Assembly: GCA_020718845.1 (NCBI GenBank)
Contig: DYRG01000006.1
Location: 1-64,000, forward strand
Reading direction: 5' to 3'
DNA length: 64,000 nucleotides
Source: Thiomargarita sp.
GTDB lineage: Bacteria; Pseudomonadota; Gammaproteobacteria; Beggiatoales; Beggiatoaceae
This document shows positions 10,793 to 19,186 of this stretch, piece by piece (position 1 is the first letter of the stretch; the number at the start of each line of letters is the position of its first letter). Made by a program: the position numbers and the translations under genes. The notes below the pieces were generated by a model, which was not told the DNA's origin, ran no database searches, and worked only from the letters and a program-made list of their open reading frames with translations.

Positions 10793-11767
10793 TTAATTTT
10801 CTAAGGCGTTAATGCGGCTTTTTAACTGTTGATATAAAGAGTTTCTTTCCCAGAAATAACCCGCAGCATACCCTTGAATAGCGGGATGTTCGGTAACAAG
10901 TGATAATCGTTTCTCTGCTAAACAACAATACTCTAGTTCAGCTTCAATTCCGATGTAATGACGATTGAGTTTCTTTGCAACCACAGAGGTTGTTCCAGAA
11001 CCTAAAAAGGGATCAAAAACGACCTCTTGTTCTTTTGAACTTGCTAAGATTAATTTTGCAATGAGTTTTTCAGGCTTTTGAGTGGGATGATCGGTGTTTT
11101 CTGGCATCGACCAAAAAGGAATAGAAATATCTGTCCATAAATTTGAAGGATAAGTAATCCGATTACCTTCATCAGAATGTTGCCAATCTTTAGGTCGTTG
11201 ATTTCTATCACGATAAGGTGCAAAAACTTTTCTTTTTATTTTTACTGCATCGATATTAAATGTGTAATCTTCAGAAACCGTGCAAAACCAAATATCTTCA
11301 GAGCAATTCTTCCAATTTGTATGAGCACCGCGACCTTTTTCTCTTTCCCATGTAATACGATTTCTTACTTTAAAATATTTTGTAATTGTTCGATGAACAG
11401 CAGAGGAAGATTGCCAATCACTACAAACATATACAGAAGCAGTTTTCTTTAATAAACGGATTAATTGACGTAACCATAAATCAAACCATATTTCATATTC
11501 ATCTAAGGTTTTTTTATTAAACAAATGTCCATTAAATGATTTGGTTAAATTATAAGGCGGATCAATGATCATCAAATCAACGCATTCATTTGGTAGATAT
11601 TTAAGTGCTTCAAATATGTCTTGATAGATGGTTTTATTAAGCAATTGTTCTATTTGAGTAGGTTCTTGTAAAACAAGGAGTTTTTGAGCATATAATTCAC
11701 GTTCTTCTGGATTTAAAACGATAGTATGATTTCTGGGTGCTTTAATTTTTTCTATCGTTTTTGCCAT
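10793..11767 (-). CDS. Site-specific DNA methyltransferase, beta class (DPPY)
   Basis: A 324-residue amino-methyltransferase with the catalytic DPPY at residues 69-72 preceding the AdoMet-binding DPFLGSGTT at 252-260, the order of the beta class that methylates adenine N6 or cytosine N4. SDWQSSSAV and HPTQKPEKL are further class landmarks. The target sequence cannot be read from the protein. No restriction endonuclease gene is next to it, so it looks like an orphan methylase or one with a distant partner. Its ATG overlaps the end of the DUF484 gene by 16 nt, so the two are probably cotranscribed. In many gammaproteobacteria xerC occupies this slot after dapF and DUF484. It converges with pyrC' across only 28 nt. 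Confidence 0.93.
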   Translation of the reverse strand: MAKTIEKIKAPRNHTIVLNPEERELYAQKLLVLQEPTQIEQLLNKTIYQDIFEALKYLPNECVDLMIIDPPYNLTKSFNGHLFNKKTLDEYEIWFDLWLRQLIRLLKKTASVYVCSDWQSSSAVHRTITKYFKVRNRITWEREKGRGAHTNWKNCSEDIWFCTVSEDYTFNIDAVKIKRKVFAPYRDRNQRPKDWQHSDEGNRITYPSNLWTDISIPFWSMPENTDHPTQKPEKLIAKLILASSKEQEVVFDPFLGSGTTSVVAKKLNRHYIGIEAELEYCCLAEKRLSLVTEHPAIQGYAAGYFWERNSLYQQLKSRINALEN

Positions 11768-16634: not shown

Positions 16635-17780
16635 ATGTTAAACTCATTGATTATTAAGAACTTTAGAGCATTAGAAAACTTTGAAGTGAAGAAACTCGGA
16701 CGAGTCAACCTAATAGTTGGCAAAAACAACTCAGGTAAAAGTACGATCCTCGAGGCGTTAAGAATTTATGCTGGTGCAGGTAATCGATCATTGTTGCGCA
16801 AAATTGCTAAAAACCGTGATGAGAAATCCGATTGGCATAGCAATGAACAACCAAATAAGTCTAATTTGTCATTTCCATTTGAGAATTTTTTTACTGGAAG
16901 ACAATTTCCTAATGAAGATAATAAAGGGATTCTAATTGGAGAAAGTCTAACAAGCCCACAGTGTTTAGAAATTCAACCTATATTCACTATAAGACAAGAG
17001 AAAATTGAAGATGGAAGGATTATAACAAGTGAGGAAATCATTGATTCTATTGCGAAAGCTAAGAGTTCAAACGCTGTTATTAAATATGCTTTAAAAATAT
17101 CACAAAACACAAAAAGTTTTCGGATTAAACTTTTCGAAGAAGATGAAGCCGAGTCGCGTTTTTTATATAGCGCAACGCCTCTGACGGATATTCCTTATAG
17201 ATTTATTTCTACTCGATTTGTTTCAATGGATAACCTTGCTCAAGAATGGGATAATATTGTCTTTACTGAACATGAAAAAATTGTTCATGATGCTTTAAAA
17301 ATTATTCTCCCTGATTTTGAAAATCTAGTGTTTGTTGAAAAAGAATATCGTGAAAGTGATTCTTCTCTCAGAACTGCAAAAATAAAACTGTCTAATCTTC
17401 CACGTCCTATATCCCTAAAGAGTCTTGGAGACGGTATGTTGAAAATATTACAATTGGTGTTAAAAATCTTTCCAACTAAAGGTGGATTTTTACTGATTGA
17501 TGAATTTGAAAATGGATTGCATTACAGTGTACAAGAAAAAGTTTGGGCATTATTATTTGAAATGGCAGAAAAATTAGATATTCAAGTTTTTGCCACGACG
17601 CATAGTTGGGATTGTATAGAAAGTTTCACTAAAGTTGCCTCTGCGAATGAAAAAACACAAGGTATTTTATTTCGCATGGGTAAAAGTGCAAAGAAAGATA
17701 ATTATGGTCAAACCATTGCTACTATTTTTGATAGAGAAGCACTTTATGATTTAACTCAAGCAGATGTTGAGGTGCGCTAA
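16635..17780 (+). CDS. OLD-like AAA/ABC-type ATPase
   Basis: A 381-residue ATPase. Walker A GKNNSGKST is at residues 29-37 after the typical opening LNSLIIKNFRALENFEV. A signature-like SLGDGMLKIL, Walker B FLLIDEFENGLH and a TTHSWD H-loop follow. This is the OLD/RecF-like (AAA_15/AAA_21) type. Its stop overlaps the next start by one base (TAATG), so it is translationally coupled to the DUF3226 protein. In fused OLD nucleases the ATPase is joined to a TOPRIM nuclease; here the two halves are separate genes, as in PARIS (AriA/AriB). A defence function is inference. AGGA at 16621-16624 is the ribosome site. Confidence 0.9.
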   Translation: MLNSLIIKNFRALENFEVKKLGRVNLIVGKNNSGKSTILEALRIYAGAGNRSLLRKIAKNRDEKSDWHSNEQPNKSNLSFPFENFFTGRQFPNEDNKGILIGESLTSPQCLEIQPIFTIRQEKIEDGRIITSEEIIDSIAKAKSSNAVIKYALKISQNTKSFRIKLFEEDEAESRFLYSATPLTDIPYRFISTRFVSMDNLAQEWDNIVFTEHEKIVHDALKIILPDFENLVFVEKEYRESDSSLRTAKIKLSNLPRPISLKSLGDGMLKILQLVLKIFPTKGGFLLIDEFENGLHYSVQEKVWALLFEMAEKLDIQVFATTHSWDCIESFTKVASANEKTQGILFRMGKSAKKDNYGQTIATIFDREALYDLTQADVEVR

Positions 17781-18445
17781 TGGAATCTTTGCTTCTAGTT
17801 GAGGGTGAATCGGATAGAGGTTTCTTTGAACAATTATGCAAACAATTGCAAATCGATGCTAAAGTTCAAGTTGCGCCACCAAAAGATATTGGTGGAAATA
17901 GAAACACTAAACAAGGTGTATTTAATCGGTTAGAACATTTATTAGGTGACTTAGTTGATTCTGAAGCAGAATTGAAAAAATTAGCTGTTATTGTTGATGC
18001 TGATTATCCTTCAATTAGTCCCCCTGACGGTTATCAAAACACTGTTAAAAAAATAGAACAATTTGTTAATCCATTTGGGTTTTCTTTAATAAATCAAGAA
18101 AATAATAATGGTTTAATTTTTCAAAATGACTCTAGTGATATTTCAGATTTTGGTTTATGGGTAATGCCTAATAATTGTGATGATGGAATGTTAGAGGATT
18201 TTATTAAACGTTGTATTAATTCAAACGAGCAACCACTTTTTAATCACGCTCAAACAACAGTTTCACAATTACCTTCCCCTAAATTTAAAGCCCATCATTG
18301 TTCTAAAGCAGAAATTGCAACTTGGTTGGCATGGCAAAAAGTACCCAGTCATGGACTTTATGTTTCAATCACAGATTCCTTATTAGATGAAAATAACCCA
18401 TTATTTGAAAAATTAAAAAATTGGTTAGTTCATGTTTTTAAGTAA
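17780..18445 (+). CDS. DUF3226 / TOPRIM-like partner of the OLD-like ATPase
   Basis: A 221-residue protein beginning MESLLLVEGESDRGFF, with Glu8 in LLVEGESD, and later VIVDADYPSI with the DxD pair Asp73 and Asp75. This glutamate plus DxD layout is that of TOPRIM nuclease or primase folds, and the whole resembles DUF3226 proteins. A basic region and SKAEIATWLAWQ near the C-terminus are typical of that family. It starts within the stop of the ATPase. The pair would by analogy sense a trigger through the ATPase and act on nucleic acid through this subunit. Activity has not been shown for this family to my knowledge. Confidence 0.82.
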   Translation: MESLLLVEGESDRGFFEQLCKQLQIDAKVQVAPPKDIGGNRNTKQGVFNRLEHLLGDLVDSEAELKKLAVIVDADYPSISPPDGYQNTVKKIEQFVNPFGFSLINQENNNGLIFQNDSSDISDFGLWVMPNNCDDGMLEDFIKRCINSNEQPLFNHAQTTVSQLPSPKFKAHHCSKAEIATWLAWQKVPSHGLYVSITDSLLDENNPLFEKLKNWLVHVFK

Positions 18446-18462
18446 GCTCGTAAGCGAGGTAG

Positions 18463-18499
18463 GGTGCGTTAGGCACATCTTTTTGTGCCGTAACGCACC
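18463..18499. repeat. Palindromic hairpin sequence
   Basis: GGTGCGTTAGGCACA (18463-18477) pairs with 18484-18499 with a one-base bulge and a 6 nt loop. It lies 18 nt after the DUF3226 stop and may end that transcript, although no T-run follows. It looks like a REP-type palindrome. Confidence 0.8.
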
Positions 18500-18516
18500 A
18501 ATAAATCTATTTTTGA

Positions 18517-18534
18517 TGCAATTGCATTGCACCT
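18517..18534. repeat. 18 bp repeat identical to one at 46733
   Basis: TGCAATTGCATTGCACCT at 18517-18534 recurs exactly at 46733-46750. Both copies stand a short distance before a gene start in the same orientation. The core is self-complementary. Confidence 0.85.
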
Positions 18535-18586
18535 ACATTAATACATATTGCAGTGTTTCAAAAACAACCATTAAAAGGAAAGAAAA

Positions 18587-19186
18587 ATGTCATTTAGCGA
18601 TTATAAAACATTGGCACAAGTTCAAACATTATTTCAAATAAAATACCAAGAAACTTCTTTTGTAAAAAATATCCCGATAGAAATATCATTGCAATTTATT
18701 GAAGAATTAAATTTCAATATAAATCAATTAGATGCTTTTTCATCGGAAGCGGCACGTTGTGAATTAATTATTTTACCCATTTTAAGAGAATGTTATAAGA
18801 AAATTGCTGTAAAATGTTCTTTATGGGTGCAAAAATCTTTAAATTATGATCAAGTTTTAAATGGTACGCCAGACTATATGATTTCTAAACGTTCACCTTT
18901 AGGAAAAACCGTTTTAAGTTATCCGTTATTAATGATTGCTGAGGCAAAGAAAAACGATTTCAATCAAGGTTGGGCACAATGCTTGGCTGAACTCATTGCT
19001 TCTCAAAAACTCAATCAAAATCAACAACCTATTTATGGAATCGTGACCGATGGAAAATATTGGGAATTTGGTTTTTTAGAACAAGATATTTTTACTAAAA
19101 ATACTAAAAGTTATACAATCGATAATTTATCAGATTTATTTGCGGGATTAAATGACATTTTCTCACGCATCGAAGAAATGATTTAA
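18587..19186 (+). CDS. PD-(D/E)XK nuclease-like protein
   Basis: A 199-residue protein with SEAARCELIILPIL (Glu59), then GTPDYMISKRS (Asp96), then LLMIAEAKKNDFNQGWAQC (Glu119, Lys121, Gln131). The Asp-x(n)-Glu-x-Lys pattern followed by a helix with Gln is the PD-(D/E)XK nuclease core seen in restriction-like proteins. The family is familiar as short uncharacterised proteins, common in cyanobacteria and sulfur bacteria. It has its own ribosome site (AAAGGAAAG at about 18572-18580) and is separated from the ATPase/DUF3226 pair by two palindromes, so membership in one operon is uncertain. Confidence 0.78.
   Translation: MSFSDYKTLAQVQTLFQIKYQETSFVKNIPIEISLQFIEELNFNINQLDAFSSEAARCELIILPILRECYKKIAVKCSLWVQKSLNYDQVLNGTPDYMISKRSPLGKTVLSYPLLMIAEAKKNDFNQGWAQCLAELIASQKLNQNQQPIYGIVTDGKYWEFGFLEQDIFTKNTKSYTIDNLSDLFAGLNDIFSRIEEMI

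Follow-up and report, generated by a model that had tools for sequence, protein, structure and literature searches.

A PARIS-like gene pair of the PDC-M38 family, encoding an OLD-type ABC ATPase and a DUF3226 TOPRIM protein, as a probable anti-phage module in Thiomargarita sp.

The stretch of Thiomargarita sp. DNA analysed here (64,000 nucleotides of contig DYRG01000006.1; hereafter the window) carries two overlapping genes, one for an ABC ATPase of the OLD/Rad50 type and one for a DUF3226 TOPRIM protein, which together probably constitute a self-contained two-gene anti-phage module that resembles PARIS and belongs to the candidate family PDC-M38. This PARIS-like pair is the best reading in view of the obligate pairing of the two genes, the co-variation of their products, the intact motifs, the similarity of the second protein to AriB and the location of relatives within BREX operons or on mobile elements. 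The original prediction had described a split OLD-like ATPase with a DUF3226/TOPRIM-like partner, followed by a PD-(D/E)XK-like protein, and had proposed either an undescribed system of three genes or a two-gene system with an unrelated neighbour. The three reading frames are all open at the predicted positions, and both members of the pair were identified by Pfam and PADLOC profiles. The features are:

16635..17780, + strand: OLD/Rad50-type ABC ATPase, PADLOC PDC-M38A (ORF of 381 aa)
17780..18445, + strand: DUF3226 TOPRIM protein, PADLOC PDC-M38B (ORF of 221 aa)
17778..17782, + strand: stop/start overlap taATG of the two genes, in which the stop TAA and the start ATG have one base in common, as predicted
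18463..18499, no strand: long inverted repeat 3' of the pair, 0 matches in 100 shuffled sequences
18587..19186, + strand: PD-(D/E)XK-like protein, a neighbour (ORF of 199 aa; PADLOC PD_DExK, 9.3e-49)

The ATPase is matched by the Pfam families AAA_15 (6.8e-25, 88.9 bits) and AAA_21 (1.2e-22, 81.8 bits). Its best PADLOC profile is PDC-M38A (478 bits, 5.2e-144), to positions 1-383 of which residues 1-381 are aligned; the AbiLi profile gives 174 bits. All ABC motifs are present, and G29, G34, K35, G265, G267, D289, E290, H323 and R381 are invariant in 76 homologues; Lys35, which had been singled out for mutation, is the Walker A lysine (GKNNSGKS). The best PDB fold matches of the AlphaFold2 model (pLDDT 92) are the retron Eco8 effector, PtuA, GajA, OLD and SMC/Rad50 heads. 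AriA was not found among the first 50, and the fold search thus did not single it out. By analogy, the ATPase would act as a sensor or regulator in the manner of AriA.

The second protein matches Pfam DUF3226 at 1.5e-48 and PDC-M38B at 5.3e-80 (266 bits; residues 2-221 on profile positions 2-219). In 72 homologues, E8, D12, D75, W127, M129, P130, N132, G136, E139 and K176 are invariant, and D73 is kept in all but one (71 of 72). E8, the Glu8 named for mutation in the original prediction, and the DxD formed by D73 and D75 are the TOPRIM catalytic motif; a further invariant block, GxWxMPxN...GMLE with K176, is a family-specific signature. The AlphaFold2 model of this protein (pLDDT 95) was compared with 350,542 PDB chains by Foldseek and the top two matches were both AriB (E=0.014 and 0.025). 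These matches are weak by the usual cut-offs, cover mainly the first half of the TOPRIM domain and have global TM-scores of about 0.25, so they were taken as a ranking only. A viral fold search gave nothing useful. AriB also came first when the DUF3226 profile was searched against 177,635 PDB sequences (E=0.0026), with LLVEG/E8 paired to LLVEG/E26 of AriB, and AriB is thus the closest solved relative both by profile and by predicted fold. AriB carrying the E26A substitution is reported to have no tRNA cleavage activity (PMC12409363). At the same LLVEG motif, hhalign aligned a single DUF4435 protein (75% probability) and a small RloB alignment (64%) with DUF3226, so that the three appear to be offshoots of a single TOPRIM group. 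By analogy with AriB, the DUF3226 protein would be the nuclease effector of the pair.

PDC-M38 is a computational candidate in PADLOC-DB v2, defined by an A ATPase with an adjoining, overlapping B partner. Both are found here, the A and B profiles are the best full-length matches of the two proteins, and no difference from the catalogued system was found; hence the pair cannot be called undescribed, the more so as modules that link an OLD-ABC ATPase to TOPRIM have already been described as a class and proposed to act as back-up effectors of BREX (PMC12839542). No paper naming DUF3226 or PDC-M38 was found in the open literature searched. The likeness to PARIS that had been noticed in the arrangement is borne out: an ABC ATPase gene is followed by a separate, overlapping gene for a TOPRIM protein whose glutamate and DxD correspond to those of the TOPRIM motif, and both kinds of pair are found inside BREX. 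However, the ATPase scores only 91 bits against AriA and the DUF3226 protein 15 bits against AriB, far below their PDC-M38 scores. The published rule for PARIS combines an AAA_15/AAA_21 ATPase (above 32/27 bits) with a DUF4435 partner above 27 bits (PMC9122126). The ATPase clears the first part, which is not a specific criterion, but no DUF4435 match at E<=1 was obtained for its partner, nor does any occur in the same genome, and the pair is consequently not PARIS itself. AbiL resembles the pair in its AbiLi-type ATPase and in its RloB-type TOPRIM, weakly alignable with DUF3226, and differs in that the second protein here has neither an RloB nor an AbiLii match. A TOPRIM protein of the RloB family is encoded elsewhere in the same genome (L176, C103:139977-140423), where an AbiL-like system is possible.

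Class 1 OLD nucleases and GajA of Gabija combine the same ATPase family with a TOPRIM domain, but as single fused proteins rather than two genes, and no GajB-like gene lies 3' of the pair in the window. An OLD- or Gabija-like complex of ATPase and TOPRIM protein with direct nuclease activity on DNA of the phage or the host is an unlikely reading, though the strongest rival of the PARIS-like pair. The ATPase folds listed above and the conserved TOPRIM residues agree with it, and OLD nucleases are known to cut DNA (PMC10568477). Against it stands the DUF3226 protein, a small free-standing TOPRIM whose nearest solved relative is a tRNase and not OLD or GajA.

The co-occurrence of the ATPase and DUF3226 genes, which had been put forward as a check, was examined by searching for DUF3226 alone in 84,980 species genomes and IMG/VR; together with three matches from the class search, this gave 86 other loci. 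The ATPase gene lies directly upstream on the same strand in all 82 that have upstream sequence, the remaining four beginning at a contig edge, and the two genes overlap by 1 or 4 bases in most homologous loci. An independent search with Pfam PF11536 in 398 genomes of the phylum added 13 matches above the cut-off, all 13 with the ATPase upstream. No fusion of ATPase and TOPRIM was seen in the loci examined. The pairwise identities of the two proteins are correlated (r=0.77, a value reached by none of 2000 permutations, the largest of which gave 0.20; r=0.62 within the near clade). Two tandem ATPase-DUF3226 pairs were observed in one genome (L139/L146).

Eight loci, every one of them within the closest 41 (L013-L053), have BREX genes next to the pair, and wherever both sides are visible the pair lies between pglX and pglZ. 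One of them (L026) runs pglX, ATPase, DUF3226, pglZ and brxL, with ends that overlap or abut. Among 105 near neighbours, six match PglZ and four BrxL, compared with no BREX protein among 96 encoded around aprA in genomes of the same family as the window, a control that is small and drawn from different taxa. A search for an empty site beside aprA was uninformative, the gene order of these genomes having nothing in common there beyond aprBA. In Salmonella, ariAB (PARIS) is embedded in the same kind of BREX operon (PMC11341690). A second OLD-type ATPase, similar to PDC-M25A, accompanies the pair in two BREX operons (L035:10740-11960 and L051:6805-8055), where it lies in the interval from pglX to pglZ. 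It is possible, and put forward tentatively, that DUF3226 pairs form, beside PARIS (DUF4435) and AbiL (RloB), a third branch of systems with an OLD ATPase and a free-standing TOPRIM, which would occupy the place of PARIS in BREX, serve as a back-up by sensing anti-BREX proteins and have an RNA target of their own, set by the GxWxMPxN...GMLE region.

The pair is also found on mobilizable plasmids of Citrobacter (6.4 kb, the rest of which is mostly replication and mobilization genes) and Acinetobacter, near phage tail genes in Plesiomonas, and on contigs of the virus collection with Zot, tail or integrase genes; three contigs of that collection carry DUF3226. No DUF3226 was found by tblastn in phage records, and the Citrobacter pair was absent from 5,426 E. 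coli genomes. Archaeal copies are about 50% identical to the pair in the window, which suggests transfer across domains. The predicted enrichment in defence islands holds for closer relatives, through BREX; distant homologues (about 30% identity) lie mostly among housekeeping genes and have no clear association with defence, so that the association is clear only among closer relatives. The window copy is likewise surrounded by housekeeping genes, as is an N6/N4 DNA methyltransferase gene at 10793-11767. The setting of the distant homologues and of the window copy would suit a housekeeping module for DNA repair or stress, and the archaeal OLD-family ATPase Cran1, which acts in the cell cycle, indicates that such ATPases can serve cellular roles (PMC12796447). 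Nevertheless, this reading is improbable, as the pair is patchily distributed (4 of 369 class genomes), travels on plasmids and phages, is inserted in BREX and has archaeal relatives.

For the PARIS-like pair, a mechanism can be proposed by analogy. The OLD-type ATPase would form a sensing assembly that keeps the DUF3226 protein inactive in a complex, until a phage signal, for instance a protein directed against restriction or BREX, sets it free or activates it. The activated TOPRIM protein would then cut nucleic acid, most probably RNA of the host, for example tRNA, although its substrate may instead be DNA, by analogy with OLD and Gabija. The infected cell would be halted by abortive infection, through which the pair would confer protection from phage. 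The candidate system PDC-M38 and the Pfam family DUF3226 thereby gain a hypothesis of mechanism, and the placement in BREX predicts a possible trigger. The intact pair on the small Citrobacter plasmid represents a compact module suited to testing in laboratory strains of E. coli.

The third gene lies on the same strand as the pair after a gap of 141 bp, with no terminator-like site on the plus strand in between, and its product, for which no Pfam match was found, belongs to the PD_DExK family that PADLOC lists as CRISPR-associated. It is probably a nuclease, as D96 (D in 25 and N in two of 27 relatives), E119 and K121 are conserved, the latter two without exception; K121, in AEAKK, is the lysine picked out in the original prediction. 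Its distribution is nevertheless different from that of the pair. Ten matches were found in its own genome, one a short degraded piece, leaving about nine scattered copies. Of the 369 class genomes, seven have the third family, and this genome is the only one that has the pair as well. No homologue was found in the 86 other loci of the pair, many of which are short contigs, and no pair at 30 other loci of the third gene, most with about 1.5 kb on each side. The trio as one unit was rejected on this distribution, and a three-gene defence system that includes the PD-(D/E)XK protein is extremely improbable and close to refuted; the alternative that had been offered, a two-gene system with the third gene as an unrelated neighbour outside it, is the one that stands. 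In a few genomes of the class, the PD-(D/E)XK-like family is present in scattered copies, whose number per genome can reach eight or more (L003-L009, L096-L118), once in tandem (L096), and it looks like a proliferating nuclease family.

The main palindrome predicted after the pair (18463-18499) is real. It was rejected as a component of the system, because a similar inverted repeat occupies intergenic positions in related genomes of the same family. The repeat, GGTGCGTTA...TAACGCACC, also occurs near aprBA in such genomes (L122, L126, L150 and L154), and is possibly a REP-like element.
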